A DNA stretch of 23,130 nucleotides from a virus. The notes beneath the pieces are model-generated. The model searched no databases and was not told the DNA's origin. It saw only the letters and a list, made by a program, of their open reading frames with translations. The stretch lies in IMG/VR virus record IMGVR_UViG_3300031553_000037, positions 1 to 23,130 of that record; one strand, written 5' to 3'. The translations under genes were made by a program, and so were the position numbers. Below, piece after piece: positions 693 through 17,596 of this stretch; within the stretch, counting starts at the first letter, position 1; every line of letters starts with the position of its first letter.

Positions 693-1217
693 TTACCTTT
701 CCGTCATAGTGACTTGCCTTAATCTAAATTCAACCACAGTTTTAGAGAAATCAAACCTCTTATCTGGAGAGATAATACCTTCAAGTAATTCCTTCATAAC
801 AACCAAATTCTGAGGTGTATAGAACTTCCTAATAAGTCTTAGGTAGTCCTGCTCCGCCTCGGTTAACACACCACCAGTTGCATCCTTATAAAGGATACTA
901 AAGTCTTTGGCCATTACCAGCTTAAAGTTTCTGGTGTATTCAATGTCATTTATCTCAAGGGAAAGTTTTTTCCTAAGTTCACCTTGACACTTAGCTTCCA
1001 CATCAGCAAAGGTTGAGTCCTCACGCCATCTGGTTAAAGTCTTGTGATGTATTTTGGTTAGCTTTAGAGCCTCAGTAACGGTGAAATTGGCTATTAGATA
1101 ACCTAAATATTGTACCTTCTTGGAGCCAATTGAGGTATCATCCAGATAGTATGGAACTATAGACCTAACGAGAGATTCGGTTGGAGTGGTTTCCTGGTCA
1201 TTAGTCTCCAAAGTCAT
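693..1217 (-). CDS. terS: Terminase small subunit-like HTH protein
   Basis: 174 residues. The N-terminal third holds a helix-turn-helix of the kind seen in phage small terminases (about residues 34-68: YLGYLIANFTVTEALKL, then HHKTLTRWREDSTFADVE); the rest is predicted helical. TerS recognises the packaging site and loads TerL. Identification rests on the HTH, the size and the position as first gene of the operon that leads to terL. A generic phage DNA-binding protein is the alternative. Its ATG is preceded by an ideal AGGAGG with 7 nt spacing and by a consensus promoter (1237-1265). Confidence 0.65.
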   Translation of the reverse strand: MTLETNDQETTPTESLVRSIVPYYLDDTSIGSKKVQYLGYLIANFTVTEALKLTKIHHKTLTRWREDSTFADVEAKCQGELRKKLSLEINDIEYTRNFKLVMAKDFSILYKDATGGVLTEAEQDYLRLIRKFYTPQNLVVMKELLEGIISPDKRFDFSKTVVEFRLRQVTMTER

Positions 1218-1236: not shown

Positions 1237-1265
1237 AGTATAGCACATTTTACATATTATGTCAA
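1237..1265 (-). promoter_or_regulatory. Leftward sigma70 promoter for terS/late packaging genes
   Basis: On the minus strand, TTGACA (1265-1260), exactly 17 bp, then TATACT (1242-1237) preceded by TGC, i.e. an extended -10. The SD and ATG of the terS-like gene follow. The -35 box is fused to a copy of the 10-bp element (TTGACATAAT, 1265-1256), so a protein bound there would block or modulate RNA polymerase. Confidence 0.8.
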
Positions 1266-1303
1266 GTATATACAATTTACTGAATAATGATATATTATGT
1301 AAT
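1256..1303. promoter_or_regulatory. Operator-like elements in the divergent promoter region
   Basis: One exact copy of RTTATGTNAA at 1256-1265 (ATTATGTCAA) overlaps the -35 of the leftward promoter. A one-mismatch copy at 1294-1303 (ATTATGTAAT) ends 8 bp before the -35 of the rightward promoter. A further degenerate inverted half (1248-1257, one mismatch) abuts the first. The same element recurs at all other strong promoters in the window, suggesting co-regulation of early and late transcription by one binding protein. Confidence 0.6.
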
Positions 1304-1311
1304 ATAGTATA

Positions 1312-1340
1312 TTGACAAAATAGCTACCATGTGATATAAT
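1312..1340 (+). promoter_or_regulatory. Rightward sigma70 promoter for the first early operon
   Basis: TTGACA (1312-1317), 17 bp, TATAAT (1335-1340), with TGA just before the -10 (extended -10). Both hexamers match consensus fully. The first ATG (1369) lies 28 nt after the -10. Confidence 0.85.
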
Positions 1341-1368
1341 ATAGGGAGAACTAAATCAGGAGACTGAA

Positions 1369-1599
1369 ATGACTTGGGGTAGTTACATACAGGATAAGAA
1401 ATTTGAGGAGTTAGACCAGTTAGGCTCTCAGTTAAGCCTGGAGTTGGATTGTGCTGTGCATTATCCTGCTTATAATAAAAACCTATTTGAATGTGAGTGT
1501 GGGGTTATATTCCCACTTTACCTAGTCAGGTCAAGGAATTGGGAACTAATGCGGAAAAAGCATGCTGAGGAAAGAGGATTAGCCGTTGGCAATTCCTAA
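1369..1599 (+). CDS. Hypothetical early protein, 76 aa
   Basis: First gene after the strong rightward promoter, with CAGGAG at a suitable distance from its ATG. The product has an acidic N-terminal helix and a central segment with a CEC pair (NLFECECGVIFPLY), then a basic C-terminus. The two cysteines plus an upstream Cys and His could bind a metal, but no full zinc-finger pattern is present. It overlaps the next gene by 14 bp. No family recognised. First position behind a consensus promoter suggests an immediate-early product, possibly acting on the host; that is inference. Confidence 0.6.
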   Translation: MTWGSYIQDKKFEELDQLGSQLSLELDCAVHYPAYNKNLFECECGVIFPLYLVRSRNWELMRKKHAEERGLAVGNS

Positions 1600-2044
1600 T
1601 GTAGTGATACGGTGGTGCCGTAAGAAGGCTAAGTGTGCCTACTGCGAGCAGGATATTGAAGTAGGACAGCCTATGGTAGTTGTTATATTTTGGAATAAAG
1701 GAGAGGAAGGAAATAGAAAGTGGAATGTTCACCTGTACTTCCACCTTGAAAGGGAGAATGGACAACACTGTTGGGTAGAACAGGGAAAGGACTTTCTCAA
1801 GAAGAATCCATTTATACCACATGCTAGAGGTAGGAAGTCCATACTATCTGCTGAGGATAGGAGAAAGAGATTTTTGCTGGTAAGGAGATTCAACGCTTTG
1901 TATCAAAGGAAACAAAACATACTGGTTGGGTACCCAGACCGGTTGTTAATAGAACAAGGATTAAATGAGCAAATGGTTGGCATAACTTTAGATATGATAA
2001 ATCTAGGAGGAGTTCCTAAGTCATGGGCAGAGAAGATGATGTAA
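1586..2044 (+). CDS. Zinc-binding conserved phage protein, 152 aa
   Basis: TTG start chosen because GAGG lies 8 nt upstream; no ATG is available early in the frame. Residues about 17-20 form CAYC inside a segment that resembles the first half of a PARP-like or HNH-like zinc module, followed by a hydrophobic strand and a HLYFHLE...HCW stretch that may supply the remaining ligands. The C-terminal half is basic and helical (RRKRFLLVRRFNALYQRK). I believe this arrangement is a recurring phage hypothetical but cannot name a family. It overlaps its neighbours at both ends, so translation is probably coupled. A nucleic-acid-binding role is plausible from charge and the zinc module. Confidence 0.65.
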   Translation: MAIPNVVIRWCRKKAKCAYCEQDIEVGQPMVVVIFWNKGEEGNRKWNVHLYFHLERENGQHCWVEQGKDFLKKNPFIPHARGRKSILSAEDRRKRFLLVRRFNALYQRKQNILVGYPDRLLIEQGLNEQMVGITLDMINLGGVPKSWAEKMM

Positions 2045-2271
2045 AATGTGACTCTCCTACTGGAGCACACCACTGGGTTCAGCTTGACCAGACTGAGGAA
2101 CTAAGAAAGAGTGGTTACTTCCAATGCAAATATTGTATGGAGGTAAGAAGGTTTGCTATTTATTGGGACCAAGTTTCCGGTAAGAGAGACCCTAATAAGA
2201 AGTATCCACTGGTTAAACAGGATGAGGTGGAAAGGATGCTTGACCAGTTGAGTAACAGGAGGTTAGGATGA
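2023..2271 (+). CDS. Small putative zinc-binding protein, 82 aa
   Basis: The product contains CDSPTGAHHW near the N-terminus and FQCKYC about 25 residues later, a C...HH...CxxC pattern that could hold one zinc ion. The remainder is basic and polar. GGAGGAG lies 10 nt before the ATG. It overlaps the preceding gene by 22 bp and the following gene by 4 bp (ATGA). Function unknown. Confidence 0.6.
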   Translation: MGREDDVKCDSPTGAHHWVQLDQTEELRKSGYFQCKYCMEVRRFAIYWDQVSGKRDPNKKYPLVKQDEVERMLDQLSNRRLG

Positions 2272-2573
2272 AAACTAGACATGTAGGTAGACTTTTACTG
2301 CCAATTGATACCTTGACTAATTTCTTCCATTATGATGGTGGCAGGGTTTGGTATGTAGGTATGCCTGAGGAGTGCTATAAAAAGGTAACCATCATGATTG
2401 AACACCCTGACATGCCAGAGATACCAGATTATGGTGAAGTCCCAATAGTTAACCCAGCATATAAATACCTAGGAATTCAGCCAGCTCATGTCATCCGGGT
2501 AGACCCACACATGGGGTTCCGGACTAAGTTAAGGCAGACTAAGAGGTTTTTATCCGAACTTTGGTTCAGCTAA
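2268..2573 (+). CDS. Hypothetical protein, 101 aa
   Basis: Starts within the stop of the previous gene (ATGA) with AGGAGG upstream, so it is translated as part of the same early message. Sequence is mixed alpha/beta with several Pro-rich turns and a basic C-terminus (TKLRQTKRFLSELWF). No known motif. Real by spacing, overlap and codon use like its neighbours. Confidence 0.6.
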   Translation: MKTRHVGRLLLPIDTLTNFFHYDGGRVWYVGMPEECYKKVTIMIEHPDMPEIPDYGEVPIVNPAYKYLGIQPAHVIRVDPHMGFRTKLRQTKRFLSELWFS

Positions 2574-2610
2574 ACCTGAAGATTTTTAATTCCTCAGAAT
2601 AGGAAGAGTT

Positions 2611-2760
2611 ATGACCAAGTTAGAATGGATTAGAACCTTTTACAATACAGGCGTATTACAAATCGGGCATCGTACCTACGGCCCATATCCACTAAGGTTT
2701 ATAGGAAAATGGATTCTTAGAAAAAATTGGCCTCTCAGAATGGGGATAGGAAAAAGATAA
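2611..2760 (+). CDS. Small basic aromatic protein, 49 aa
   Basis: A 49-codon ORF starting MTKLEWIRTFYNTG, with AGGAAGAG before its ATG and 37 nt after the previous gene. Very basic (many Arg/Lys) and rich in Trp, Tyr and Phe, ending GIGKR. It is the last gene before the repeat array. No family recognised; confidence is limited by the size. Confidence 0.45.
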   Translation: MTKLEWIRTFYNTGVLQIGHRTYGPYPLRFIGKWILRKNWPLRMGIGKR

Positions 2761-2794
2761 TCCATCTCCAGTTAAGGTGACCCCTACCCCTTAG

Positions 2795-2998
2795 GTTATG
2801 TAAAGTAGCCGTTATGTTAAGCTAATAAGTTGGCACCGTTATGTCAACTAATAGATGGGTTGCGTTATGTAAAGGTGTTATGTCCTCAGGGGCTGGTACA
2901 TTATGTTAACTAGAACAGGCAACATTATGTCAAGTAGTTTGGGTTATAGGCTCGTTATGTTAACCAACGAGTTTTTGAAAATGGTAACATTATGTAAA
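2795..2998 (+). repeat. Array of nine direct copies of RTTATGTNAA (iteron/operator array)
   Basis: Copies start at 2795, 2811, 2838, 2864, 2877, 2900, 2924, 2954 and 2989, all in the same orientation. Eight match RTTATGTNAA exactly and one (2877-2886, GTTATGTCCT) deviates at its 3' end. Start-to-start distances are 16, 27, 26, 13, 23, 24, 30 and 35 bp, so spacing is irregular. The array fills the gene-free stretch 2761-3100 and ends 9 bp before a consensus promoter. Possible roles are a multi-site operator/silencer or replication iterons; nothing here decides between them. Confidence 0.85.
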
Positions 2999-3007
2999 GG
3001 AAACTAC

Positions 3008-3036
3008 TTGACAAACGATATCCGATATGATAAAAT
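3008..3036 (+). promoter_or_regulatory. Sigma70 promoter of the 3101 gene
   Basis: TTGACA (3008-3013), 17 bp, TAAAAT (3031-3036) with TGA directly before it. The last array copy (2989-2998) ends 9 bp upstream of the -35. The next gene starts at 3101, leaving a leader of about 60 nt. Confidence 0.8.
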
Positions 3037-3100
3037 AAATTATGCTGATGAATTGGCAACAGCATTAGCACCTTAAAAATTTAATATAGGAGTGTGACAG

Positions 3101-3655
3101 ATGAACTTTGATGAGCTAAAGAAGGCTATGGCTGACGCAATTGCTAAGGGTGATACCAAAGCGATTGAGGAAGCCGCCGCCGCCATCAGTAAATCCAAAG
3201 TTGAACGCCATAAAGCTGAAGCTGAAGCTATACGGAAGGAGTCCGAAGCGTTAGCTGGGAAGCGTGAGAAGTTTGGAGAAGTTATCAAGTCAGCAGTTAA
3301 AGGACTAGGGCTTGATAAAGACATCGCCGCCCTAAAAGCTAAGGGGTTTACTTACACCATAGACCATAGGGAAGACCCCAACGGCAGAATAAATCCAGAA
3401 GGGGAAGTCAAAGTCACTGGTGGTGTAGGGTTGCTAGTTCCTTCAGTGAGGGGTAAGAGTGCTGGTGGAGCTGGTGGAGCTGGCAAGACTAAGGACGAGT
3501 TTGGGATGAGTCTCGGAGAGGTGTTCGAGAAGTTTGCAACCGACGAGGAACGAGACAAGCTCGCCATCGCTGAGACCAACTCCGCCCAATGGGCAATTAA
3601 AAACTCCGTTAAAAAGCGTGCCATCAAGGATGGATTGCTCAACCCCGCCAAATAA
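3101..3655 (+). CDS. Autonomously transcribed coiled-coil protein, candidate DNA-binding/architectural protein
   Basis: 184 residues. Residues about 1-75 form a long Ala/Glu/Lys-rich amphipathic helix (likely coiled coil). A beta-like segment follows (FTYTIDHRED...VKVTGGVGLLVP), then a Gly/Ala linker (SAGGAGGAGK) and a basic helical C-terminus (SAQWAIKNSVKKRAIKDGLL). The order oligomerising helix, linker and basic tail recalls H-NS/Rok-like silencers in plan only; no homology is claimed. The gene has its own promoter and a strong terminator directly after it, so it is a single-gene unit, probably well expressed. Codons differ from the neighbours (runs of GCC, many AAC, CGC, ATC), and it holds the only TCGA I found in the window. 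This may reflect expression-driven codon choice or recent acquisition. Confidence 0.75.
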   Translation: MNFDELKKAMADAIAKGDTKAIEEAAAAISKSKVERHKAEAEAIRKESEALAGKREKFGEVIKSAVKGLGLDKDIAALKAKGFTYTIDHREDPNGRINPEGEVKVTGGVGLLVPSVRGKSAGGAGGAGKTKDEFGMSLGEVFEKFATDEERDKLAIAETNSAQWAIKNSVKKRAIKDGLLNPAK

Positions 3656-3669
3656 AACACAATAACAGG

Positions 3670-3705
3670 AACAGGTAGTTAGTTGCCAGCTACCTGTTTT
3701 TGTTT
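3670..3705 (+). terminator. Strong intrinsic terminator after the 3101 gene
   Basis: Perfect 9-bp stem AACAGGTAG (3670-3678) / CTACCTGTT (3690-3698), 11-nt loop, followed by TTTTGTTTGT. It lies 15 nt after the stop codon and isolates the gene from the next operon. Confidence 0.9.
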
Positions 3706-3789
3706 GTCTCGGAATAGGTAATAAGGTAGTATGGCTATTGAGGACATTGGAGGAGAAATAGCGGGAATTGCTGGACATTGATAGCCAAC

Positions 3790-3884
3790 TTTACATAATA
3801 TTGTAGCTGTGTTATGTAAATAGAACACTTGTACTATTGACAACTGCAACACTAGGAGCTATAATAAAGATAACTTTACATAAT
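3790..3884. promoter_or_regulatory. Three operator-like elements around the second early promoter
   Basis: Exact RTTATGTNAA copies at 3790-3799 (minus orientation), 3811-3820 (plus) and 3875-3884 (minus). The first two form an inverted pair upstream of the -35; the third lies just past the -10, near the expected transcription start, where binding would block initiation. The surrounding gene-free stretch is 3656-3917. Confidence 0.65.
3837..3865 (+). promoter_or_regulatory. Sigma70 promoter of the large early operon
   Basis: TTGACA (3837-3842), 17 bp, TATAAT (3860-3865); both hexamers are perfect. It precedes the long unbroken series of plus-strand genes up to 10904, none of which is followed by an obvious intrinsic terminator. 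Confidence 0.85.
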
Positions 3885-3917
3885 ATAGGTAATGTTAGAC
3901 GGAAGGAGGCAACCTCA

Positions 3918-4013
3918 ATGCGTAAGATAAAGGTTACTTGGCGACAGCTAGAGGACATTATCAAGTCCAAGAACATTATCGGAGAGGATGAGGAAGTCAG
4001 TCAAGTCAGCTGA
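3918..4013 (+). CDS. 31-aa leader-position peptide
   Basis: First ORF after the 3837-3865 promoter: MRKIKVTWRQLEDIIKSKN and so on to 31 residues. GGAAGGAGG lies 8 nt before the ATG, an excellent ribosome binding site. The short amphipathic helix has a basic start and acidic end. No family recognised. Strong SD and position support translation; function unknown. Confidence 0.5.
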   Translation: MRKIKVTWRQLEDIIKSKNIIGEDEEVSQVS

Positions 4014-4067
4014 CCAAGCCTAGGACTTTACTCATCCATTCCGAAATAAAACGGAAGGAGAGTTAAA

Positions 4068-4367
4068 ATGAGAGTCACAACAACAGGCAAGCCAGACCAT
4101 AATAGGCATATGGACATAGGGGTTGAGGTTGTAGTCTTCCGCAACTATGGTAATGTTATGGGCAGACTAACACCATACTCAACCAAATATGTTCCTATTG
4201 AGGGAGGGTTGCACACCGTAATCACCGCAAAAAAGCAGGTACAGTATGGATGGGGTGTAACTTCTACCTATATGCTATACCAAATAGCTACACCTTTTGG
4301 TCTACTATGGGTAAAGGCTTCTGACCTACTGAATACATACCAATTTTACTCGCCTAGTACGAGGTAA
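4068..4367 (+). CDS. Hypothetical protein, 99 aa
   Basis: GGAAGGAG precedes the ATG. A small inverted repeat (TTCCG 4039-4043 / CGGAA 4052-4056) overlaps that SD and could fold over it. The product appears beta-rich (DIGVEVVVFRNYGNVMGRLT; LYQIATPFGLLWVKASDLL), suggesting a small beta-barrel-type fold. No catalytic motif. Function unknown. Confidence 0.6.
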   Translation: MRVTTTGKPDHNRHMDIGVEVVVFRNYGNVMGRLTPYSTKYVPIEGGLHTVITAKKQVQYGWGVTSTYMLYQIATPFGLLWVKASDLLNTYQFYSPSTR

Positions 4368-4375
4368 TAAAGTAA

Positions 4376-4621
4376 GTGGAAGACCAACCTGAAGGTAAAA
4401 TAATACATAGCTCTATAGGTGACTTCATACCCGAGGTACTGAGCTATGAGCCAGTCAACGAGGTAGCTCACTTTTGCCCTTCCATAGAGTGTCCATTCTG
4501 CGGCTACCCAGGACAATATAACATAGAGGTCAAGGGCAAGTATGCCAACTACTGTCCTAGCTGTGAGCTTACCTGGAAATACAGGCTTGAGAGAATACCG
4601 TTCTCAATGATAGGAGGGTGA
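4376..4621 (+). CDS. Small zinc-ribbon protein, 81 aa
   Basis: GTG start; only a distant GAGG (11 nt) is seen, so the start is less certain. The C-terminal half is a clear zinc ribbon: CPFCGYPGQY, about 15 residues, then YCPSCELTWKY. The preceding part is acidic and may be a partner-binding region. Such ribbons in phage early regions often bind nucleic acid or RNA polymerase, but no partner can be inferred here. Confidence 0.65.
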   Translation: MEDQPEGKIIHSSIGDFIPEVLSYEPVNEVAHFCPSIECPFCGYPGQYNIEVKGKYANYCPSCELTWKYRLERIPFSMIGG

Positions 4622-4623
4622 CA

Positions 4624-4809
4624 ATGGAATACTACCAATTGGTTAAGTTATGTCCTAGCTGTATTGACGATGTGTTGGATGGGGAAATTGAGTTTACTGA
4701 ACCAACTATCATCAATGAGGTCAAAGGTTGCAAGGACTGTGACAATGCTGTAGTTGAGGATTACAACCAGCTTGTTACTAACCGTGGTAAAATACTAATG
4801 GAGGATTAA
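4624..4809 (+). CDS. Small acidic cysteine-rich protein, 61 aa
   Basis: ATG at 4624 chosen over an in-frame GTG at 4618 because AGGAGG (4612-4617) is 6 nt from the ATG but abuts the GTG. Contains CPSC and, about 27 residues on, CKDC, a likely four-Cys zinc site, in a strongly acidic protein. It overlaps nothing but follows the previous stop by only 2 nt. Function unknown. Confidence 0.6.
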   Translation: MEYYQLVKLCPSCIDDVLDGEIEFTEPTIINEVKGCKDCDNAVVEDYNQLVTNRGKILMED

Positions 4810-4810
4810 C

Positions 4811-4948
4811 ATGCCACTAGATACACCTGAAATAATTGAGGAACAACCAGTCAGTTGGATAGCACTCCACGATACTACCAACTACCTAGAGTATTTAGAT
4901 AAGGACGATGTAGTTTGGGTTAAATTCTGCCAGACTCATACCAACTAG
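4811..4948 (+). CDS. Small acidic protein, 45 aa
   Basis: ORF starting MPLDTPEIIEEQPVSW, with GGAGG overlapping the end of the previous gene and its ATG 1 nt after that gene's stop. Acidic, with a short aromatic beta-like stretch (DDVVWVKFCQTH). No family recognised. Supported by SD and the absence of any other gene in the gap. Confidence 0.5.
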   Translation: MPLDTPEIIEEQPVSWIALHDTTNYLEYLDKDDVVWVKFCQTHTN

Positions 4949-4956
4949 GAGGGCTG

Positions 4957-5160
4957 ATGAAAAAGCCAGTCAGGTTTAAGAATGGTCAACGAGTAAAGCA
5001 TATAGGTCTAGGAGCATATGCCTCAGTGGTAGAGGATAGTGAGGAGACTACCACTATGATTAAGTGGGATGATTGGAATACTACCAAACGAGGTAAGCCA
5101 GTAACCTACAAAGGTGGTACTATCAAGGTAATGACCCACCAATTAAAGCTGGTTAAATAG
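4957..5160 (+). CDS. Small SH3/KOW-like basic protein, 67 aa
   Basis: AGGAGG 8 nt upstream. The sequence (FKNGQRVKHIGLGAYASVV, then TTMIKWDDW and KGGTIKVMTHQLKLV) looks like a small beta barrel of the SH3/KOW type, where a G-x-RV strand is followed by turns and a final strand. Strongly basic, so nucleic-acid or protein binding is plausible. Fold assignment is by eye only. Confidence 0.55.
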   Translation: MKKPVRFKNGQRVKHIGLGAYASVVEDSEETTTMIKWDDWNTTKRGKPVTYKGGTIKVMTHQLKLVK

Positions 5161-5168
5161 GAGGATAA

Positions 5169-5552
5169 ATGATAATATCCAATTGCACTAAAAAGGATAT
5201 TGACCAAGCCTTAGATATTACTAACCAAGAATTTAACAATAACATAAGGCTTAACAACTACCAACAACTCAGTGGTACTGGTCTAAGGCACAGGGTAACA
5301 CTACGGGTAAAGGACTCACACGGTAGTGGTGCACACCTAAGTAGGTACATGGAACCATTTGGACACAAGCCAAGACGCACAATCTCAGCCTGTTGGCATG
5401 TTCACGGTACATTCTTTGATGCTCTACCATACGGCACTAAAATATATACCGGAGGCAAGTTGCATATGGCTGGCGACCAATGGGATAACTTTAATATTGG
5501 CTCTACCATATATCCCATATTTGCCAGTGATTCCTGTAACTGTGGTGAATAG
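5169..5552 (+). CDS. Hypothetical phage protein, 127 aa
   Basis: AGGAGG before the ATG. The central part is compact, with HRVTLRVKDSHGSGAHLS and a CWHVHGTFFDALP segment; the end holds SDSCNCGE, a possible partial metal site. Position and size fit a small phage accessory protein. No catalytic signature that I can name. Confidence 0.6.
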   Translation: MIISNCTKKDIDQALDITNQEFNNNIRLNNYQQLSGTGLRHRVTLRVKDSHGSGAHLSRYMEPFGHKPRRTISACWHVHGTFFDALPYGTKIYTGGKLHMAGDQWDNFNIGSTIYPIFASDSCNCGE

Positions 5553-5563
5553 GAGGATAGGTA

Positions 5564-5869
5564 TTGTACTATAAAATAAGGATACACGAAACAGGTAGGA
5601 ATTCATTAAAGGAGGAGCCAGTAACCCTTAATGTAGAGGTTAAAGAGGTAAGAACACTAGAGGAAGTAAAGTCTTATCTAACAGACCGATATGGTAAAAT
5701 ACCTAAGCGTACACCTACTAACACAACTTACCAAGAACCAAATGCTACACCTATTGGCTTCGTATACTCCTACTGGAATAAGGACTATAGCCACAATACT
5801 AAGTCTTGGTATCAGACAGACTGGGTGGAGGTGACTATGGTAGTAGAAAAGCCTATACTATTAAATTGA
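5564..5869 (+). CDS. Hypothetical protein, 101 aa
   Basis: TTG start inferred from AGGAGG (5551-5556) 7 nt upstream; no ATG exists nearby in frame. The product reads as an alternating strand/helix protein, beginning with YYKIRIHETG and ending with WVEVTMVVEKPILL. No known family. Confidence 0.55.
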   Translation: MYYKIRIHETGRNSLKEEPVTLNVEVKEVRTLEEVKSYLTDRYGKIPKRTPTNTTYQEPNATPIGFVYSYWNKDYSHNTKSWYQTDWVEVTMVVEKPILLN

Positions 5870-5883
5870 TTAGGAGGATAGGT

Positions 5884-6252
5884 ATGAAGATACATAAGGA
5901 ATTCCCTGAATGTCCAGTATGTGGCTCCAAAGAACGATTGCTGGAAACCTTAGCTCAAGACCTCAAGGATAGAGGGTTAGCCAGCAAAGATTGGGACTTC
6001 CATTATGACTCCCGACAAGGTGTAGTCATTGAGCAAAAGTCCCAACATAAAATGTTAATAGGAGCCAAGATACCAGCCTACCACATCAACACCGACATTT
6101 GTATGGCTTGTGGCTGTGTCTATGCCACCAGCTTTGACGTAGGTGAAGCAACCATAACTGCTAAGGAGTTCAAACCTAACATACAAACTCCGAGACAGCC
6201 TGGAAACCTTCCACTAGGTATACCGCCAATAGACCTGATAAGAGGTAACTAA
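5884..6252 (+). CDS. Zinc-ribbon-containing protein, 122 aa
   Basis: ATG at 5884 chosen because AGGAGG (5872-5877) lies 6 nt upstream; the open frame extends further back but overlaps the previous gene without an SD. Residues 9-15 (CPVCGSK) and about 80 (CMACGC) give two widely spaced CxxC knuckles, consistent with one zinc ribbon with a long insertion. The C-terminus is Pro-rich. Function unknown; one of several zinc-ribbon genes in this operon. Confidence 0.65.
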   Translation: MKIHKEFPECPVCGSKERLLETLAQDLKDRGLASKDWDFHYDSRQGVVIEQKSQHKMLIGAKIPAYHINTDICMACGCVYATSFDVGEATITAKEFKPNIQTPRQPGNLPLGIPPIDLIRGN

Positions 6253-6437
6253 TGTTAGTGAGGCCAGAGAGTAGTTGGAACCTACCACCTACCGACAAAC
6301 AAATGAGGCGGGTAACCCTACTACGAATGAGGCATCATATATTGGATGATAGCAAACCTGCTAACAGGCTAGAAGCTAACAGGATAATCAATAGGTTAAG
6401 GAGGAGGCCATGCGAAAGAATTGGTACTTACACCTAG
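6252..6437 (+). CDS. Small arginine-rich protein, 61 aa
   Basis: Its ATG shares a base with the previous stop (TAATG), and AGAGG is upstream. The product is strikingly rich in Arg (QMRRVTLLRMRHH; RIINRLRRRP), which suggests RNA or DNA binding. It overlaps the next gene by 28 bp. No family recognised. Confidence 0.5.
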   Translation: MLVRPESSWNLPPTDKQMRRVTLLRMRHHILDDSKPANRLEANRIINRLRRRPCERIGTYT

Positions 6438-6613
6438 CCGCAAGTAGCATCCTAACTGCCATAGGTCTAATGCTTATTATAATGTTCCTGGTAATGGCAT
6501 TTGGTGGTAGCTGGTATGAACCTAACTTAGCAATAGCCTTGGTTGAAGTTGCCTTATCAATCGGGGTTACTGTGTTAGGCTTTATCATATGGCTAAAAGT
6601 TATAAGGAATTAG
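6410..6613 (+). CDS. Two-helix membrane protein, 67 aa
   Basis: GAGGAGG before the ATG. Two hydrophobic segments (about residues 8-31, and about 41-63) separated by a short polar turn (GGSWYEPN), with basic residues at both ends, so both termini probably face the cytoplasm. This is holin-like or superinfection-exclusion-like in plan, but no lysin gene is nearby. It is the last gene before a 64-bp AT-rich gap. Confidence 0.6.
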   Translation: MRKNWYLHLAASSILTAIGLMLIIMFLVMAFGGSWYEPNLAIALVEVALSIGVTVLGFIIWLKVIRN

Positions 6614-6623
6614 TATATTAAAC

Positions 6624-6646
6624 TACTGTAATAGTATTATACAGTA
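6624..6646. repeat. AT-rich inverted repeat TACTGTA-N9-TACAGTA
   Basis: Perfect 7-bp arms at 6624-6630 and 6640-6646 in the only sizeable gap of this part of the operon (6614-6677). Three TAGTAT hexamers (6611, 6632, 6649) surround it. It could be an operator for a dimeric HTH protein; no convincing promoter hexamers were found with it. Confidence 0.4.
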
Positions 6647-6677
6647 AATAGTATATATAACCAAAGGAGGACAACTT

Positions 6678-6851
6678 ATGAGCAGGTCAGGACAAGCATT
6701 TGTTGCGGCTACTGAGGGACACCAGTTTACTCTTTATGCTGTGATGAGGAGGCTAGGTTTACCACTTACAGAGGAGCAGGCTAAGTTCCAGGAATACCTA
6801 GAACGTACTTACCCTCCTGTAGTAGAGAAGGAGGAGCCATGTACGGATTAG
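6678..6851 (+). CDS. Small hypothetical protein, 57 aa
   Basis: ORF starting MSRSGQAFVAATEG, with AAAGGAGG before the ATG; first gene after the 6614-6677 gap. Predicted helical, ending acidic (VVEKEEPCTD). It overlaps the next start by 13 bp, and the SD of that gene lies inside it. Function unknown. Confidence 0.55.
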   Translation: MSRSGQAFVAATEGHQFTLYAVMRRLGLPLTEEQAKFQEYLERTYPPVVEKEEPCTD

Positions 6852-7045
6852 CTGAGGTAATAGATACCAATGCCTTGGAGCAACAGGCTGTACAATCCCT
6901 AGAGAATTTAGGACTGGCAGTTACCAGCAACAACCTGAAGAAGTTATGGCATGAGTTCCTTGATGAGGAACTTGACCGAGTCCTATTTATATGTGCTGAG
7001 AGGATAGCTGAGGAGGCTAAATTTGGACGAGCAAGATTACCCTGA
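6839..7045 (+). CDS. Small acidic helical protein, 68 aa
   Basis: AGGAGG is 5-6 nt upstream, inside the previous gene. Entirely helical in appearance and acidic, with a C-terminal basic end. No motif. Overlaps both neighbours, so translation is likely coupled. Confidence 0.55.
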   Translation: MYGLAEVIDTNALEQQAVQSLENLGLAVTSNNLKKLWHEFLDEELDRVLFICAERIAEEAKFGRARLP

Positions 7046-7283
7046 TGGCCTAATTACCGAGTCAGCCCATGATATTGGTGACTTGGTCTATGTGGCTAGA
7101 ATAATAGAGAGGTATGCAGACCCAATAATGGTGGATGCCTACAACTTTGGGGTTACAATGCCCTGTCCTATATGTGGGTCAGACAATACCTGTTGTATAT
7201 CACCTAGTTTTGAGCCACATGGTTGGTTCTGTCAAGACTGTACTTTACTTTGGGAATGGATATTAGCTCCAGAGGAGGTATAA
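7023..7283 (+). CDS. Zinc-ribbon protein, 86 aa
   Basis: TTG start supported by AGGAGG (7011-7016) with 6 nt spacing; the frame has no early ATG. C-terminal zinc ribbon: CPICGSDNTC, then about 18 residues, then WFCQDCTLLWEW. The N-terminal half is acidic and helical. The layout is close to that of the 4376-4621 protein (acidic N-terminus, CPxCG, CxxC, aromatic end), so the two may be distant paralogues. Confidence 0.65.
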   Translation: MDEQDYPDGLITESAHDIGDLVYVARIIERYADPIMVDAYNFGVTMPCPICGSDNTCCISPSFEPHGWFCQDCTLLWEWILAPEEV

Positions 7284-7284
7284 T

Positions 7285-7377
7285 ATGTGGAAGTGGTGTG
7301 TATTTGGTTTCGTTATAATCCTTGCTGTTTGGGGTATTATAGCTATTACCTTGGTGCTGAGTGGGGGACTACCATGA
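7285..7377 (+). CDS. 30-aa single-pass membrane micropeptide
   Basis: Starts MWKWCVFGFVIILAVWG and is almost wholly hydrophobic, ending SGGLP. GAGG lies 8 nt before the ATG, and its stop overlaps the next start as ATGA. A one-helix membrane peptide; function unknown. Similar in plan to the micropeptide at 7889-7978. Confidence 0.5.
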   Translation: MWKWCVFGFVIILAVWGIIAITLVLSGGLP

Positions 7378-7568
7378 GCAGAAGGAAAGATAGAGAAAGG
7401 GCTAAGACCTCTGTTTTCCGTAATGGTAGACTTGTGCCGAGATATTTAATTGACCAAGCAGAGAGGGATAAGAGGCAGGCTCAAACAGATGCAGAGTTGG
7501 TTAGGCTAGGTCTAATACCTGGTAGAACCAAAATTATAATGCCAAAAATTAAACCAAAGGAGCAGTAA
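7374..7568 (+). CDS. Small basic protein, 64 aa
   Basis: Begins MSRRKDRERAKTSVFRNG at the ATGA overlap with the membrane micropeptide. A longer reading from upstream in the same frame is possible but would overlap that gene entirely and lacks its own SD. Rich in Lys and Arg throughout; likely nucleic-acid binding by charge only. Confidence 0.55.
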   Translation: MSRRKDRERAKTSVFRNGRLVPRYLIDQAERDKRQAQTDAELVRLGLIPGRTKIIMPKIKPKEQ

Positions 7569-7892
7569 ATGGAAAAGGACAAACTGGATTTTAAGCTGGT
7601 AATACTTGGAGGCGAAGTGGCAAGGTTAGAATACGAGTTCTTACCTATTTCATCGGATGGCAAGCATGAGCCAACACTAGCCAGGTTGTTAATCAAGGAA
7701 TTTGGACTGCCGGATAACTGGAGGCACCGTAGCTCTGGGACTATAACCCTTGACATAAAATACACACCAGTACTGACCAATGATATTTACCTTGATTTGA
7801 TATTTAATGTCCAATGCTACATCACCAACCTACTAGACAAAGCAATATTCCAGAGGAGGATAGCTAAGGCGATACAGGACAGCCAACAATGA
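7569..7892 (+). CDS. Hypothetical protein, 107 aa
   Basis: ATG directly after the previous stop, with AAAGGAG upstream. Mixed alpha/beta with two beta-like stretches (FKLVILGGEVARLEYEFLP; GTITLDIKYTPVL) and a helical basic C-terminus. No family recognised. Its stop overlaps the next start. Confidence 0.6.
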   Translation: MEKDKLDFKLVILGGEVARLEYEFLPISSDGKHEPTLARLLIKEFGLPDNWRHRSSGTITLDIKYTPVLTNDIYLDLIFNVQCYITNLLDKAIFQRRIAKAIQDSQQ

Positions 7893-7978
7893 AGTGGTTA
7901 ATAATATTGCTGGCTGGTTGGGTCTTAGTATTTGTTATATATATGCTGGTACTTAGGTACTGGTTACCAGGAGGTTAA
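7889..7978 (+). CDS. 29-aa single-pass membrane micropeptide
   Basis: Starts MKWLIILLAGWVLVFV and ends YWLPGG: one transmembrane helix with basic residues near both ends. ATGA overlap with the previous gene; the SD of the next gene lies in its last codons. The KW start and the LP/GG ending echo the micropeptide at 7285-7377, suggesting a related pair. Function unknown. Confidence 0.45.
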   Translation: MKWLIILLAGWVLVFVIYMLVLRYWLPGG

Positions 7979-7979
7979 A

Positions 7980-8150
7980 GTGGAAAAAGTTACCTGTAAT
8001 ACTTGTGGTTGGAAAGGTAATGATGATGAACTAGGTAAGTGTCGCATTGGACATCATGGTACTGACGACTCAGAGGTTGTAGAAAGGTGTCCCAATTGTG
8101 GTAGTATGGACTTAGAATATGAGCCTAACACCGAGAGAACGGATACTTAA
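7980..8150 (+). CDS. Zinc-ribbon protein, 56 aa
   Basis: GTG start with AGGAGG (7969-7974) 5 nt upstream. A small complete ribbon: CNTCGWKG at residues 5-8, then C...H at about 19-24, and CPNCGSMD at about 40. The CxxCGW...CPxCG form resembles rubredoxin-like/zinc-ribbon domains. Possibly a nucleic-acid-binding or protein-adaptor module. Confidence 0.6.
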   Translation: MEKVTCNTCGWKGNDDELGKCRIGHHGTDDSEVVERCPNCGSMDLEYEPNTERTDT

Positions 8151-8529
8151 AGAACGAGGTATGGTTAAGACTAGACCTTCCTCTAAAAAGAGGAGTAAAG
8201 TTGTGCCTATTATAAAGCCACCAGTCTCAGGCATTAGCAAAACTCCAATGATGAGGTATTTAGAGGAGAAGTATGGACAACCAATAGAAGAAGTACTTAT
8301 CTCAGGTTCCTTAACCATAATAGTTAAAAGGTTGAATGGTGAGGTGGATAGAAGCACGGTGAGTAGGTGGATTAAACGCCTCAAGCTACGTTACACTTCT
8401 GATAATTTGCCTAACTGTCATGGCTGTAAGGAGTATAGACCAGCTTGTGATTTAGGTTTATGCTATGTACTACTTAACTTGGAATTGTGGGAGTTAGTAC
8501 CACTGAAGAAGGAGGAAATACTAGGATGA
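8119..8529 (+). CDS. HTH DNA-binding protein with C-terminal cysteine cluster
   Basis: Up to 136 residues. The N-terminus is very basic; a helix-turn-helix lies at about 71-92 (IIVKRLNGEVDRSTVSRWIKRL), the kind found in small phage regulators and resolvase-type HTHs. A cysteine cluster follows (CHGCKEYRPACDLGLC), fitting a zinc or iron-sulphur site. The start is uncertain: the ATG at 8119 lacks an SD, an ATG at 8161 has GAGG too close, and a GTG at 8203 has AGGAG with 7 nt spacing. The one recognisable HTH protein of this early operon, so a candidate regulator. Confidence 0.6.
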   Translation: MSLTPRERILKERGMVKTRPSSKKRSKVVPIIKPPVSGISKTPMMRYLEEKYGQPIEEVLISGSLTIIVKRLNGEVDRSTVSRWIKRLKLRYTSDNLPNCHGCKEYRPACDLGLCYVLLNLELWELVPLKKEEILG

Positions 8530-8846
8530 ACCTATCTACAACAAGGCAGATAATCAAACTATGTGAGGAGAATAAAATTGAGGAAGCTATAGCCATACTC
8601 AAGGCTGAGTTAGGTAAACCTACCCAACACACCAAAGACCAAGAGGACTGGGGCATATTAGTCCTGAGATTACTCCGTAAGATAGGAGTTGTGAATAGTG
8701 ACACAGACCCAAGCATCGTAGAGGTTGTTGCTGCCGCAGAAGATGCTATAGAGCATTTTGAGGGCTGCCAGAAGCGGATAGAACAGGCAAGAAGCACCCC
8801 TGGTCAAGTAATCCTTGGGTCTGGGCAGTATCCTTTAAGATGCTAA
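8526..8846 (+). CDS. Helical hypothetical protein, 106 aa
   Basis: ATG at 8526 (ATGA overlap) with GGAGGA upstream, preferred to an earlier in-frame start inside the preceding gene. Predicted all-helical (TRQIIKLCEENKIEEAIAIL; VEVVAAAEDAIEHFEGC). No known motif. Confidence 0.6.
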   Translation: MNLSTTRQIIKLCEENKIEEAIAILKAELGKPTQHTKDQEDWGILVLRLLRKIGVVNSDTDPSIVEVVAAAEDAIEHFEGCQKRIEQARSTPGQVILGSGQYPLRC

Positions 8847-8865
8847 AAGAGCAGGATGAGGGGAG

Positions 8866-9000
8866 ATGAAACAAATTACAGCTTCTTGTAAATATTGTAA
8901 ACATTATTCTTATAAGTCTGGCTGGTGCTACAAACTAAAGCGGCAAGTCAGGCGGAATGACATATGTCTGGGCTTTGATACCCTAGAAAGGAGAAGATGA
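8866..9000 (+). CDS. Cysteine-rich zinc-finger-like peptide, 44 aa
   Basis: Starts MKQITASCKYCKHYSYKSG. It holds CKYCKHY, a second Cys (WCYKLK) and a final Cys (ICLGF): four cysteines spaced as in small 'CxxC...C...C' phage peptides that end in a CxGF-type motif. GAGGGGAG before the ATG; ATGA overlap with the YopX-family gene. Likely metal-binding; role unknown. Confidence 0.6.
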   Translation: MKQITASCKYCKHYSYKSGWCYKLKRQVRRNDICLGFDTLERRR

Positions 9001-9434
9001 TGGAGAGAGAGATTAAATTCAGGGCGAAGCAGCGACATTGGGATGAGTTTGATAGTTTCAATACTTGGTTATTCGCTAGTGGGTACTATTATGATGGTAC
9101 TAATTATTGGTTCACTCTACCAGATGATGAAAACTCAGGTATTGCTTATGCGCAACATAAAATAATTGATATAAACACATTGGGGCAATACACTGGCCTC
9201 AAAGACAAGAACGGCAAGGAAATTTATGAAGGGGATATAGTAGAACTCCTCAAGCGGAGGACACTAACTAATTTGTTCACTCGGCAACTCACAATTCACA
9301 TTCAATGGAGTGAAGATGGGTTGAATTGGAATATTTGGAGGCCTCATCCTGATTTAGAAAAGTGGGAAGTCATCGGCAACATCTACGAAAACCCCGAATT
9401 AGTTAGCCCCACACCTAATGGGGAGGGGGAATGA
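8997..9434 (+). CDS. yopX: YopX-family phage protein
   Basis: 145 residues. The N-terminus REIKFRAK and the central signature TLGQYTGLKDKNGKEIYEGD are the hallmark of the YopX family, widespread in Firmicutes phages and prophages such as SPbeta. The family forms small beta-rich proteins of unknown function. GGAGA lies before the start, at an ATGA overlap. Its presence adds to the evidence that this is phage DNA, and hints weakly at a Gram-positive-type host range, though YopX occurs elsewhere too. Confidence 0.85.
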   Translation: MMEREIKFRAKQRHWDEFDSFNTWLFASGYYYDGTNYWFTLPDDENSGIAYAQHKIIDINTLGQYTGLKDKNGKEIYEGDIVELLKRRTLTNLFTRQLTIHIQWSEDGLNWNIWRPHPDLEKWEVIGNIYENPELVSPTPNGEGE

Positions 9435-9454
9435 GAAATAAAAGGAGGATAACC

Positions 9455-9640
9455 ATGCTGGAGATTAAAATCCTAATGAGGGAACTAAGGAATTACCCAA
9501 ACAACTACTTTGCCTATCCACGAGAGGAAAAACTAGACGGTGAAACTCGTACCACTGGTAGTTTGGTAGTTTGCGATGTCAATGGTATAACCAAGGGAGT
9601 CATTGAAACTGGTAATGATAAAAAGATTTTAGTCAGGTAG
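9455..9640 (+). CDS. Small hypothetical protein, 61 aa
   Basis: Two in-frame starts: ATG 9431 (GGGAGGGGG upstream, ATGA overlap with the previous stop) and ATG 9455 (AAGGAGG, 6 nt spacing). The second is chosen for the better spacing. Product MLEIKILMRELRNYPNNYF onward, with a beta-rich second half. No family recognised. Confidence 0.55.
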   Translation: MLEIKILMRELRNYPNNYFAYPREEKLDGETRTTGSLVVCDVNGITKGVIETGNDKKILVR

Positions 9641-9652
9641 AAAGGTTGATGG

Positions 9653-10423
9653 ATGAAAGGGCTAACACCCAATGAGTTGATAGCTTGGACTCCACCGTAC
9701 CAATCTAACATAATTAGCCATGATATCCTAATAACTCAAGGAACCATGATGGTATATGGTAAAGAGGAGACATGGAAAAGTATGTTGGTAGGTCTGGACA
9801 TGTCCTTTAGAATAGCTACAGGTAAAGACTGGTTTGGCTTTAAGACCACAGCAAGTCCAGTCTATATATTCCAGACCGAGATACCTCAAGGCCCACTCCG
9901 TAAGAGGATGATAAAATACATGCAGGGTAATAAAGCCACCACTGAAAACATTTGGTATAGTAGTGAACTCTATATGAAGATTGATAAAGGTTGGGGCTAC
10001 GCCGAGTTGGAAAAGGAAATAGAGAGAACTAGACCTAAGGTACTGGTAGTAGACCCTATTTTTAGCTCCATGTCTGGGAAGCTATCCGATGATTATGATG
10101 TTGGTTTGTTCATAGACCGGATGGATATGCTCAGGTCTAAGTATAAGGTAGCTATTATCCTAATACACCATACCAGGATAGCAGAACATAGCGAGGGTGA
10201 GACATTCCATTATGGAGCAGATGAAATATTTGGTTCCTCAAGATGGCCAAGGTGGTTAGATACCATCATATATATTGACAAGGTTAAGGATGATGAAGTT
10301 ACTGAGTTAGTAGACCTAAGACTGGTATTTGAAAAGACTAGGCATACTGAGAGGAAGCTAAAGGATATTGAGGTCACTGTTAATCGTAGTGACTTAACCT
10401 TTAGAAGAAAGGAATACCTATGA
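9653..10423 (+). CDS. RecA-fold (AAA_25/RepA-like) ATPase, probable replication helicase or loader
   Basis: 256 residues. Walker A region at 36-43 (GKEETWKS), in which the usual Gly before Lys is Trp; likely catalytic Glu in FQTEIP (76); Walker B VLVVDP ending at Asp134; then ILIHHTR, the strand and His pair typical of RepA/DnaB-related RecA-fold ATPases. The family includes plasmid RepA hexameric helicases and many phage replication ATPases. It lacks a primase domain and is shorter than DnaB, so it may be a stand-alone helicase core or a loader. It sits near the end of the second early operon, just before the replication operon. Confidence 0.75.
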   Translation: MKGLTPNELIAWTPPYQSNIISHDILITQGTMMVYGKEETWKSMLVGLDMSFRIATGKDWFGFKTTASPVYIFQTEIPQGPLRKRMIKYMQGNKATTENIWYSSELYMKIDKGWGYAELEKEIERTRPKVLVVDPIFSSMSGKLSDDYDVGLFIDRMDMLRSKYKVAIILIHHTRIAEHSEGETFHYGADEIFGSSRWPRWLDTIIYIDKVKDDEVTELVDLRLVFEKTRHTERKLKDIEVTVNRSDLTFRRKEYL

Positions 10424-10478
10424 GGAGGTGTTGCCTAACGATATTAAATCCGAATCTTAAAGAAAGGAGGTGAACCAA

Positions 10479-10904
10479 ATGGAGAATGTAGAGAAGTGGT
10501 TGGTAACTGTTATCATCCTGTTAATCCTGATGGTAGTCGCACTTGGTGTTGGGTTAGGTGTTTTTATACCTAAGATTAACTATAATACCTCTGTCCTTGA
10601 GGCGGCTAACACCAATGCTACTACCGCCATCAACAATGCTGAAGGTGTAAGTAAAGACCTAACTACTCATACTGAGGATTATGACCAGTTTGTTGAGGAT
10701 ACCAACAAGGCTATAGCTGACCTACAGAAAACCTCACTTACTGATGAGGAAAGGGACAGTCTGGCTGATATTGATGGTATGCTGAAGGACATAGCAGACA
10801 ATACTAAGGATATAACTGAACTACAGGATGAGGACACCGATATCTGGGACGAGCTTGATGAATACCTAGACCGAATTAAGGAACTGGAATGGGAGGTTTG
10901 GTAG
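10479..10904 (+). CDS. Membrane-anchored acidic coiled-coil protein, 142 aa residue range
   Basis: ATG 10479 is preceded by AAAGGAGGTGA, a near-complete anti-SD match, 8 nt away; an in-frame GTG at 10470 lies within that SD. Residues about 7-32 form one transmembrane helix, followed by a long, strongly acidic helical region (NATTAINNAEGVSKDL; ITELQDEDTDIWDELDEY), probably a coiled coil outside or inside the membrane. Spanin-like or anchoring roles are conceivable, but no lysis genes are near. Last gene of the operon before the next promoter. Confidence 0.65.
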   Translation: MENVEKWLVTVIILLILMVVALGVGLGVFIPKINYNTSVLEAANTNATTAINNAEGVSKDLTTHTEDYDQFVEDTNKAIADLQKTSLTDEERDSLADIDGMLKDIADNTKDITELQDEDTDIWDELDEYLDRIKELEWEVW

Positions 10905-10907
10905 TAC

Positions 10908-10930
10908 TTAACATAACAACTTTACATAAT
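10908..10930 (-). promoter_or_regulatory. Two operator-like elements upstream of the replication-operon promoter
   Basis: Exact copies of the element in minus orientation at 10908-10917 (TTAACATAAC) and 10921-10930 (TTTACATAAT), 13 bp apart. The second ends 5 bp before the -35 at 10936. Confidence 0.65.
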
Positions 10931-10935
10931 AACTC

Positions 10936-10964
10936 TTGACAGTCAAGTACCATTGTGCTATAAT
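10936..10964 (+). promoter_or_regulatory. Sigma70 promoter of the replication/recombination operon
   Basis: TTGACA (10936-10941), 17 bp, TATAAT (10959-10964), preceded by TGC (extended -10). All downstream plus-strand genes to 19903 can be read from it. Confidence 0.85.
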
Positions 10965-13202: not shown

Positions 13203-13402
13203 TGGGCTATCTATCAAATGGTCAATTCATCCAATCCGATGATTATGGTCGTGGGCTCCAGGAGGAAATACTCCGAGAGGCTAGACAAATTTATCGGGAT
13301 TGGTATGGTAAGCGTAGTGTTGATACCTTATCTACCATGGAGCTAGACCGAGTTAAAACTGAGGCTGGTAAACGAGTAATGAGGAGAAGGAGACAACAGT
13401 GA
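13202..13402 (+). CDS. Small basic helical protein, 66 aa
   Basis: TAATG overlap with the previous gene; only a weak GAGGAAG upstream, so probably translationally coupled. Helical, ending in a run of arginines (KRVMRRRRQQ). Unknown function; charge suggests DNA or RNA contact. Confidence 0.55.
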   Translation: MGYLSNGQFIQSDDYGRGLQEEILREARQIYRDWYGKRSVDTLSTMELDRVKTEAGKRVMRRRRQQ

Positions 13403-13848
13403 TACAGAATCCAGAAGCTATAGCTTGGACAATAGCGGCAGAAGGTTATATCAGCTTGAGGAAGAACCATAACTCAATACAACCAAGAGTTGGTCTGGCT
13501 AATACTAAGGAAGACTTTATTATAAAATTCCAAAAGATGGTAAATGGTATTGGTAGGGTTTATTATTATAAACACCAGAACCCAAAACATAGTGGCAAGT
13601 GGTTCTGGGAGTTATATTCAACTGGTGCCTGCCTGGAATTGCTGGTTGAGATATATGATTACCTACCTATAAAGGAGGAACAGGCAGATATTGTTATCGG
13701 CTTTTGTATGAGGTCTTTGGACAGAATAGCAAAGACGAGAGGACTTTCCAGAGGCAGTAAGGAATGGAAGTCTGCTTGGTTCCTAACAGAACAGGATTTA
13801 AGTGACTATGAACGCATGAAGGTATTAAATAGCAGAGGTGCACAATGA
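13399..13848 (+). CDS. LAGLIDADG-family homing endonuclease (single motif)
   Basis: 149 residues, GTG start (GTGA overlap) with GAAGGAGA upstream. Near the N-terminus, IAWTIAAEGYISL is a LAGLIDADG helix variant (consensus like AGLIDGEGYI): the Asp is changed but the Glu that would bind metal is kept. The following strands (QPRVGLANTKEDFIIKFQ; GRVYYYK) fit the family. One motif per chain implies it works as a homodimer. Wedged between overlapping genes ahead of the Sak4-like ATPase, as expected of a free-standing homing gene. The changed motif leaves activity uncertain. Confidence 0.7.
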   Translation: MIQNPEAIAWTIAAEGYISLRKNHNSIQPRVGLANTKEDFIIKFQKMVNGIGRVYYYKHQNPKHSGKWFWELYSTGACLELLVEIYDYLPIKEEQADIVIGFCMRSLDRIAKTRGLSRGSKEWKSAWFLTEQDLSDYERMKVLNSRGAQ

Positions 13849-15061: not shown

Positions 15062-15208
15062 ATGTATGGCAGAGATTCCATACTTGATAGGATAATGACA
15101 GGACTAGTACATATCCTACTATCAGTAGGAGCATTTCTAGTTCTAGCCATGACTGGCATTGGAGTATATGTAGTTATCAAGTTATTAGTAACATGGATTG
15201 GAGGTTGA
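15062..15208 (+). CDS. Single-pass membrane protein, 48 aa
   Basis: Starts MYGRDSILDRIMTGLVH. One or two hydrophobic helices (about residues 14-46), ending TWIGG. AGAGGAGAG before the ATG. It ends just before the next gene, whose SD lies in its last codons. Odd position for a membrane peptide within a replication operon; function unknown. Confidence 0.5.
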   Translation: MYGRDSILDRIMTGLVHILLSVGAFLVLAMTGIGVYVVIKLLVTWIGG

Positions 15209-15209
15209 A

Positions 15210-15659
15210 GTGTCCATGAGCTGGGACTATATAGCCGGATTCTTTGATGGTGAAGGCTCAGTAGTTTACCTAAGTGGTAAATCATATAGGGTAACCTTTG
15301 CACAATCCAATATTACAGTTCTTAACCAAATAGCGGATTTTCTCCATGAGTTTGGTATATATACTTGGATAACGTACAAACAGCCTACATCATTGACCAG
15401 GTTACCAAGCTATCACCTAGCCTTCTCCAAATCAATGAGTGTTAGGTTCTTTTTACAACAAATTCAGGATAAAGTAATAGTTAAGAAGGAATTACTATGG
15501 TATGTCTTGAACAACCTATCTACCACACCCAGACATGAGATACCACCAGAGATAGATAAGAAGGTCTTGGAATTGAGAACTAAGGGATTAAGCCAGACAG
15601 CTATAGCAAATAGGTTAGGAATATCACAATCTGCTGTTTGGAGGAGGTGTCATCCATGA
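15210..15659 (+). CDS. LAGLIDADG homing endonuclease with C-terminal HTH
   Basis: GTG 15210 chosen (GGAGG at 15200-15204, 5 nt spacing); ATG 15216 is the alternative. YIAGFFDGEGSVVYL near the N-terminus is a good LAGLIDADG motif with the acidic residues intact. The C-terminus carries a helix-turn-helix (LSQTAIANRLGISQSAVWRR), which probably adds target recognition. Its stop overlaps the start of the ERCC4 nuclease gene (ATGA). A free-standing mobile gene inserted directly ahead of a DNA-repair gene. Confidence 0.85.
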   Translation: MSMSWDYIAGFFDGEGSVVYLSGKSYRVTFAQSNITVLNQIADFLHEFGIYTWITYKQPTSLTRLPSYHLAFSKSMSVRFFLQQIQDKVIVKKELLWYVLNNLSTTPRHEIPPEIDKKVLELRTKGLSQTAIANRLGISQSAVWRRCHP

Positions 15660-17585: not shown

Positions 17586-17596
17586 TGGAGGATAAA

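Follow-up and report, generated by a model that had tools for sequence, protein, structure and literature searches.

We analyzed a 23,130-bp record from a virus collection (IMG/VR record IMGVR_UViG_3300031553_000037; hereafter the window, a phage fragment and not a whole genome), in which a preliminary description had picked out a 10-bp element, RTTATGTNAA, as a mark of strong promoter regions. The window runs from terminase-like genes on the left through small early genes to helicase-like AAA, Sak4-like, methyltransferase, and DNA polymerase A genes. The RTTATGTNAA core is referred to here as the type-1 site, and a second, palindromic operator, TAGNACANNTGTNCTA, as type 2. Type-1 sites lie at every strong intergenic promoter of the window and recur at the equivalent promoters of almost all its relatives.

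Type-1 sites at the promoters of the window

When both strands of the window were searched, 14 exact copies of RTTATGTNAA were found, one at 1256, eight within 2795-2998, and one each at 3790, 3811, 3875, 10908, and 10921, together with two near copies; this recount agrees with the preliminary description. Strong promoters were predicted by scanning for the sigma-70-like consensus TTGACA-N17-TATAAT with 11-12 of its 12 positions matched. The sites and promoters are as follows.

1237..1265, minus: leftward promoter TTGACA-17-TATACT, sigma-70-like, before the TerS-like gene (693-1217) and the terminase
1256..1265, plus: type-1 site ATTATGTCAA, exact; on the minus strand it reads TTGACATAAT, whose TTGACA is exactly the -35 element of the leftward terminase promoter
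1294..1303, plus: near copy ATTATGTAAT, one mismatch, 8 bp upstream of the -35 element at 1312
1312..1340, plus: rightward early promoter TTGACA-17-TATAAT, 12/12
2795..2804, plus: type-1 site GTTATGTAAA, exact, array B
2811..2820, plus: type-1 site GTTATGTTAA, exact, array B
2838..2847, plus: type-1 site GTTATGTCAA, exact, array B
2864..2873, plus: type-1 site GTTATGTAAA, exact, array B
2877..2886, plus: near copy GTTATGTCCT, two mismatches, array B, read from the sequence
2900..2909, plus: type-1 site ATTATGTTAA, exact, array B
2924..2933, plus: type-1 site ATTATGTCAA, exact, array B
2954..2963, plus: type-1 site GTTATGTTAA, exact, array B
2989..2998, plus: type-1 site ATTATGTAAA, exact, array B, 9 bp upstream of the -35 element
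3008..3036, plus: promoter TTGACA-17-TAAAAT of the 184-aa gene, from the consensus scan
3790..3799, minus: type-1 site ATTATGTAAA, exact
3811..3820, plus: type-1 site GTTATGTAAA, exact
3837..3865, plus: promoter TTGACA-17-TATAAT of the small-gene early operon, 12/12
3875..3884, minus: type-1 site ATTATGTAAA, exact, at the predicted start point
10908..10917, minus: type-1 site GTTATGTTAA, exact
10921..10930, minus: type-1 site ATTATGTAAA, exact, 5 bp upstream of the -35 element
10936..10964, plus: promoter TTGACA-17-TATAAT of the replication/recombination operon, 12/12

Array B thus comprises nine head-to-tail copies within 204 bp of noncoding DNA, at spacings of 16, 27, 26, 13, 23, 24, 30, and 35 bp. 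None of the 14 exact copies falls inside a called gene and, as had been estimated from composition, fewer than one would be expected: 100 dinucleotide shuffles of the window gave 0.86 ± 1.02 exact matches with a maximum of 4, and 14 was never reached. Because the total with one mismatch tolerated (30) sits near chance (18 expected), only exact or near-exact copies are informative. All five intergenic promoters with 11-12 of 12 consensus positions (1265-1237 on the minus strand, 1312, 3008, 3837, and 10936) carry sites, which, as described before, overlap the -35 element (1256), flank it (2989 and 10921), or sit at the start point (3875). The only other 11/12 matches in the window, at 16174 (plus) and 17741 (minus), are both intragenic; the earlier statement that the element marks every strong promoter is therefore valid for intergenic promoters.

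Conservation of a longer site among relatives

Relatives of the window were gathered with its helicase-like protein (8 related viral contigs) and its polymerase (21 related viral contigs), and a separate DNA search for three core copies had already turned up several of them. The clade set consists of 20 relatives plus the window (21 records; 671 kb, 10.2% intergenic), with genes called on the fetched whole records by a home-made dicodon and ribosome-binding-site script. Exact RTTATGTNAA occurred 108 times in intergenic and 17 times in coding DNA of this set, compared with averages of 3.0 and 14.6 for 200 letter permutations. The coding copies are at background, so the excess is intergenic, and we reject a coding artifact. 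The 20 relatives alone have 111 exact copies, 94 of them within the ~10% of DNA that is intergenic; whole-record counts over 25 relatives were 114, versus 14 for the backwards pattern. The preliminary description would have given up the regulon idea if relatives lacked the motif at equivalent promoters or if exact copies were frequent in coding DNA; neither was found.

Re-estimation gave the site aYRTTATGTHAASY, which is ~13 bp long and asymmetric and has almost no G at the free position. A position weight matrix (PWM) from 134 sites carries information across ~13 columns with no full dyad, and the extended PWM has 130 intergenic matches, whereas the reversed PWM at the same threshold gives 2. 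Sites recur in the clade in five clusters, and the same promoters carry them in relatives at roughly 40-80% protein identity.

Cluster A: in the gap that separates the TerS-like gene from the first early gene (divergent terminase and early promoters)
Cluster B: upstream of the 184-aa gene, P184
Cluster C: before the small-gene early operon
Cluster D: ahead of the operon that contains the 256-aa gene, the Cas4-position gene, and the Sak4-like and polymerase genes
Cluster E: at a leftward promoter among late genes (a second late promoter), outside the window fragment

In the interval -90..+70 around the -35 element, 66 of the clade's 90 strong intergenic promoters contain a site, compared with 13.8 ± 3.5 for random intergenic points. 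Conversely, 87 of 133 sites lie within -70..+50 of a strong promoter, and 14 have none within 250 bp. Eleven sites read TTGACATAAY laid exactly on the -35 element in reverse, and others lie inside the -35/-10 spacer. With respect to transcription, upstream sites are in the same orientation in 58 cases and opposite in 34, and promoter-overlapping sites are split 11 and 11; in the window, cluster D is opposite to transcription and cluster C is mixed. Tandem spacings peak at 13-16 bp, with none at 10-11. One relative, G014, has lost its type-1 sites.

A second, palindromic operator

On reading the equivalent regions of relatives G014, G005, and G022, we noted the 16-bp palindrome TAGNACANNTGTNCTA, which is absent from the preliminary description. 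Its exact copies number 16 in intergenic and 0 in coding DNA of the clade (36 and 2 with up to one mismatch), and eight copies end on the base just before a -35 element. The window contains one such operator.

3821..3836: type-2 palindromic operator TAGAACACTTGTACTA, ending on the base before the -35 element of the 3837 promoter

One half of the palindrome is changed in this copy (GAACACTTGTAC), and the half-site varies generally (TAGAACA, TAGCACA, and TAGTACA). GAAC-N4-GTTC occurs 14 times in intergenic and 3 times in coding DNA, and the cyanobacterial form of the LexA box, RGTAC-N3-DGTWC, 3 and 2 times; G005 has a type-2 form like the cyanobacterial box RGTACNNNDGTWC. In G005 and G014 (L169 and L195), type-2 sites replace the type-1 array in the P184 region. 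The LexA box quoted for Bacillus in work on GIL01 is CGAAC-N4-GTTCG (PMC4551915). The type-2 palindrome contains or resembles this box, and LexA might bind it.

P184, a conserved gene among the operators

3101..3655, plus: P184, a conserved 184-aa protein with a predicted coiled coil and a C-terminal helical domain

Every complete clade genome carries type-1 and/or type-2 operators 5' of P184 and again at the promoter that follows, the 5' sites of G002 being slightly more than 900 bp from the gene. No P184 was detected in outgroups without the operators. In G006, G012, G016, G017, and G019, the gene is inverted and thus diverges from the early operon, the arrangement of a lysogeny switch. Its orientation changed at least three times on the polymerase tree, and the operators remained on its 5' side. 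G001 is direct as judged by its TerS; its "inverted" label arose since no polymerase was assigned there for orienting. The C-terminal domain exists in two forms, which do not follow operator type. P184 gave no significant Pfam, PHROG, PDB, or fold match, and its AlphaFold model (mean predicted local distance difference test score 73.6) had no credible PDB or viral match.

Long 5' leaders precede P184 in G002, G014, G005, G021, and G022 (L160, L195, L169, L190, and L198) and hold conserved stretches, e.g. AATAGATGGCTACTATTGGAGTAGCAAGGTG and TTACTCTAGCTGCTAGGGCATAGG. These leaders are possibly structured RNA; an Rfam scan gave no match in the sources it covered, L195 not being among them. Further, a conserved noncoding element follows the 256-aa gene in G005, G006, G014, and G022 (e.g. 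around 7350-7700 of L169) and carries GCTTGCTGG...CCAGCAAGC and CTGCCAGCC repeats.

Arrays of the core in unrelated phages

Dense arrays of this core were also found in unrelated phages, which have hardly more than a distant DNA polymerase in common with the clade. At the positions left free in the search, these arrays favor similar bases (Y-R before the core, H inside it, and R-T after it); in the remaining, mostly AT-rich loci from the same search, these flank preferences are weaker. The extended triple-site pattern occurs in 19 stretches of the viral collection, compared with 2 for a single permuted control. The recurrence is partly selection, since 2.9 million contigs were searched for this very motif.

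In seven of the unrelated phage contigs, arrays lie on both sides of a gene of 82-89 aa whose family was not recognized, and a protein search with this gene returned exactly those seven contigs.

L012, 1621-2338: arrays and 82-89-aa gene
L038, 846-1542: arrays and 82-89-aa gene
L105, 284-934: arrays and 82-89-aa gene
L052, 6909-7537: arrays and 82-89-aa gene
L037, 7577-8150: arrays and 82-89-aa gene
L063, 7895-8482: arrays and 82-89-aa gene
L017, 7921-8506: arrays and 82-89-aa gene

Homology of this protein to P184 was rejected (hhalign probability 0.2%), and no credible P184 or H108 (a candidate regulator of the window, see below) was found in the unrelated array-bearing phages. We also rejected a gene common to all array-bearing groups, only DNA polymerase A being widely shared, and an origin of the other phages' arrays from IS21-type ends, because phage genes occupy these loci and no transposase was found there. 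The cultured polymerase relatives of the second array group (Stenotrophomonas AXL_3 and Pseudoxanthomonas PW916) are without sites.

Other genes of the window

693-1217: TerS-like helix-turn-helix (HTH) protein, adjoining the terminase, conserved across the clade and in two outgroups

This protein had no Pfam or PHROG match. The proteins at 15198-15659 and 17585-18019 both match the PHROG HNH endonuclease family phrog_5046, adjoin replication genes, and are probable homing endonucleases; 13399-13848 looks similar to them when read by eye.

Discussion

We propose, with a probability of roughly 0.7, that RTTATGTNAA is the core of a ~13-bp putative site for one DNA-binding protein that holds the early, replication, and late promoters down together. 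One sequence-specific protein would bind aYRTTATGTHAASY and repress these promoters jointly, through the copies that nearly every sigma-70 promoter of the phage carries on its -35 element, within the -35/-10 spacer, at its start point, or a short way upstream; the array before P184 would be the densest control point, and a second, dimeric LexA-like regulator would act on TAGNACANNTGTNCTA at the same central region. Sites on the -35 element or in the spacer should exclude RNA polymerase and therefore fit repression, and the upstream copies, whose distances vary, could serve either cooperative repression or activation. The earlier suggestion that early and late transcription may be connected under one regulator is supported in that sites join early, replication, and late promoters; that these would answer to the same factor is part of the proposal. 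Beyond the preliminary description, the analysis adds the longer ~13-bp site, the second palindromic operator, P184 as a hub flanked by operators, and the loss of type-1 sites in one lineage.

Several points weigh against this proposal. Many sites are placed upstream of the -35 element with no fixed distance, and taken alone this arrangement would suit activation as well. A search for the binder by gene presence or absence and family matching named no binding protein, and no widespread core gene is absent solely from G014, which lost its type-1 sites and in which both P184 and H108 persist. The gene calls rest on a home-made caller, and because some records are near-duplicates or near-identical (e.g. 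G003, G009, and G010), the clade site counts are not fully independent.

The proposal has two sub-cases, which differ in who binds. In the first, which we regard as an open possibility somewhat short of even odds, the phage has adopted a host-encoded global regulator and would thereby read the state of the host and defer lysis. As precedents, phages of Alphaproteobacteria use CtrA and GIL01 uses LexA. No CI-like HTH_3 repressor common to the clade was found, nor any integrase (tyrosine or serine; PF00589 and PF00239) in 17 records, several of which may be incomplete. The similarly flanked core arrays of unrelated phages, the excess of the triple-site pattern over its control, and the likeness of the type-2 motif to the Gram-positive LexA box point the same way. 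However, those arrays mostly flank one small gene and not many promoters, and the contigs came from a motif search judged against one permuted control. Further, of two protein queries of a bacterial genome collection, one came back empty and the other gave as its only host lead a 29% terminase match.

In the second sub-case, a phage-encoded regulator binds the sites. Its best candidate would be made from the early operon and feed back on the promoters of that operon.

8119..8529, plus: H108 family, 136-aa protein with an HTH-like segment and four invariant Cys; candidate regulator

H108 (scanned in the clade from a shorter, 108-aa start, 8203-8529) is present in every complete clade genome, with invariant recognition-helix residues in the HTH-like segment. 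The second candidate is P184, which is confined to the operator-bearing clade and always placed among operators. Yet G014 keeps both genes without type-1 sites, the C-terminal forms of P184 do not track operator type, and H108, like P184, has no significant Pfam, PHROG, PDB, or fold match and gave a poor model when folded alone. We hold a phage-encoded binder to be a tentative option, and a host factor is about as likely as H108.

It seems rather unlikely to us that YRTTATGTHAAR is the site of a novel bacterial global regulator or new repressor class that was wired independently into unrelated phage lineages and that here, together with the LexA-like operator, would form a two-input dormancy switch centered on P184. 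More doubtful still is a role of array B (2795-2998) as a replication origin or partition site (iterons or a centromere) to which the promoter copies would be secondary. Nine head-to-tail copies in noncoding DNA would suit such an element, as would the core arrays in several unrelated phages, but the spacing is irregular, the equivalent array in G005 and G014 is built from type-2 sites, and single sites recur at -35 elements of other loci. Finally, coincidence in AT-rich promoter DNA, with which the near-chance number of single-mismatch matches in the window would agree, is already refuted, as dinucleotide shuffles, letter permutations, the reversed pattern, and the reversed PWM do not reproduce the sites.

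The analysis provides a comparative promoter-and-operator map for a clade that is known here only from metagenomes and has no recognizable repressor or integrase. The map names exact DNA baits and a few candidate proteins, and the regulator can therefore be fished directly. Should the binder prove to be host-encoded, the clade would join the phages in which a host regulator such as CtrA or LexA times lysis, and the regulator would possibly be common to several phage lineages.

Among known systems, the boxes of the OmpR/PhoB family (PhoP, WalR, and RpaB) are TTWACA-like half-sites repeated about every 10-11 bp, and we rejected such direct-repeat boxes on the tandem spacing given above. The CtrA-site clusters of Alphaproteobacteria phages (PMC9437464) are similar in that sites crowd a large intergenic region and occur at promoters, and perhaps in their recurrence in several unrelated lineages, the arrays here having been found by motif search; they differ in sequence, and here the network spans nearly all strong promoters and the host was not identified. 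GIL01, which is controlled by host LexA and phage gp7 (PMC4551915), resembles the clade in that the type-2 palindrome has GAAC-N4-GTTC, occurs in many copies, and abuts an early promoter, and in that no integrase was found, whereas the type-2 half-site varies here and the type-1 site is without a GIL01 counterpart.

The preliminary description had likened the network to stoperators. Those of Cluster A mycobacteriophages (L5 and Bxb1; repressor Rep) share with it an asymmetric ~13-bp site (13-14 bp in Cluster A) in many copies per genome, some of them within promoters, and a site set that changes by lineage. In L5-type phages, however, the sites are oriented with transcription and are mostly located away from promoters (PMC6550527, PMC9283540), whereas here orientation is mixed (58/34 upstream and 11/11 overlapping) and sites are concentrated at promoters (87/133) and not in elongation-blocking gaps within operons. 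Stoperators are also bound by a monomeric Rep-type repressor in temperate phages with an integrase or parABS; here, no repressor relative was detected among the candidate regulators, and no integrase was found in the 17 records scanned. We thus reject membership in the stoperator family, as the sites are not aligned with transcription and lie mostly at promoters. Because the stoperator features of orientation and location are missing, the CtrA sequence differs, and the host was not identified, we assign no named family. Overall, we conclude that the sites are best described as a putative dispersed phage operator network working like a global promoter-control system.

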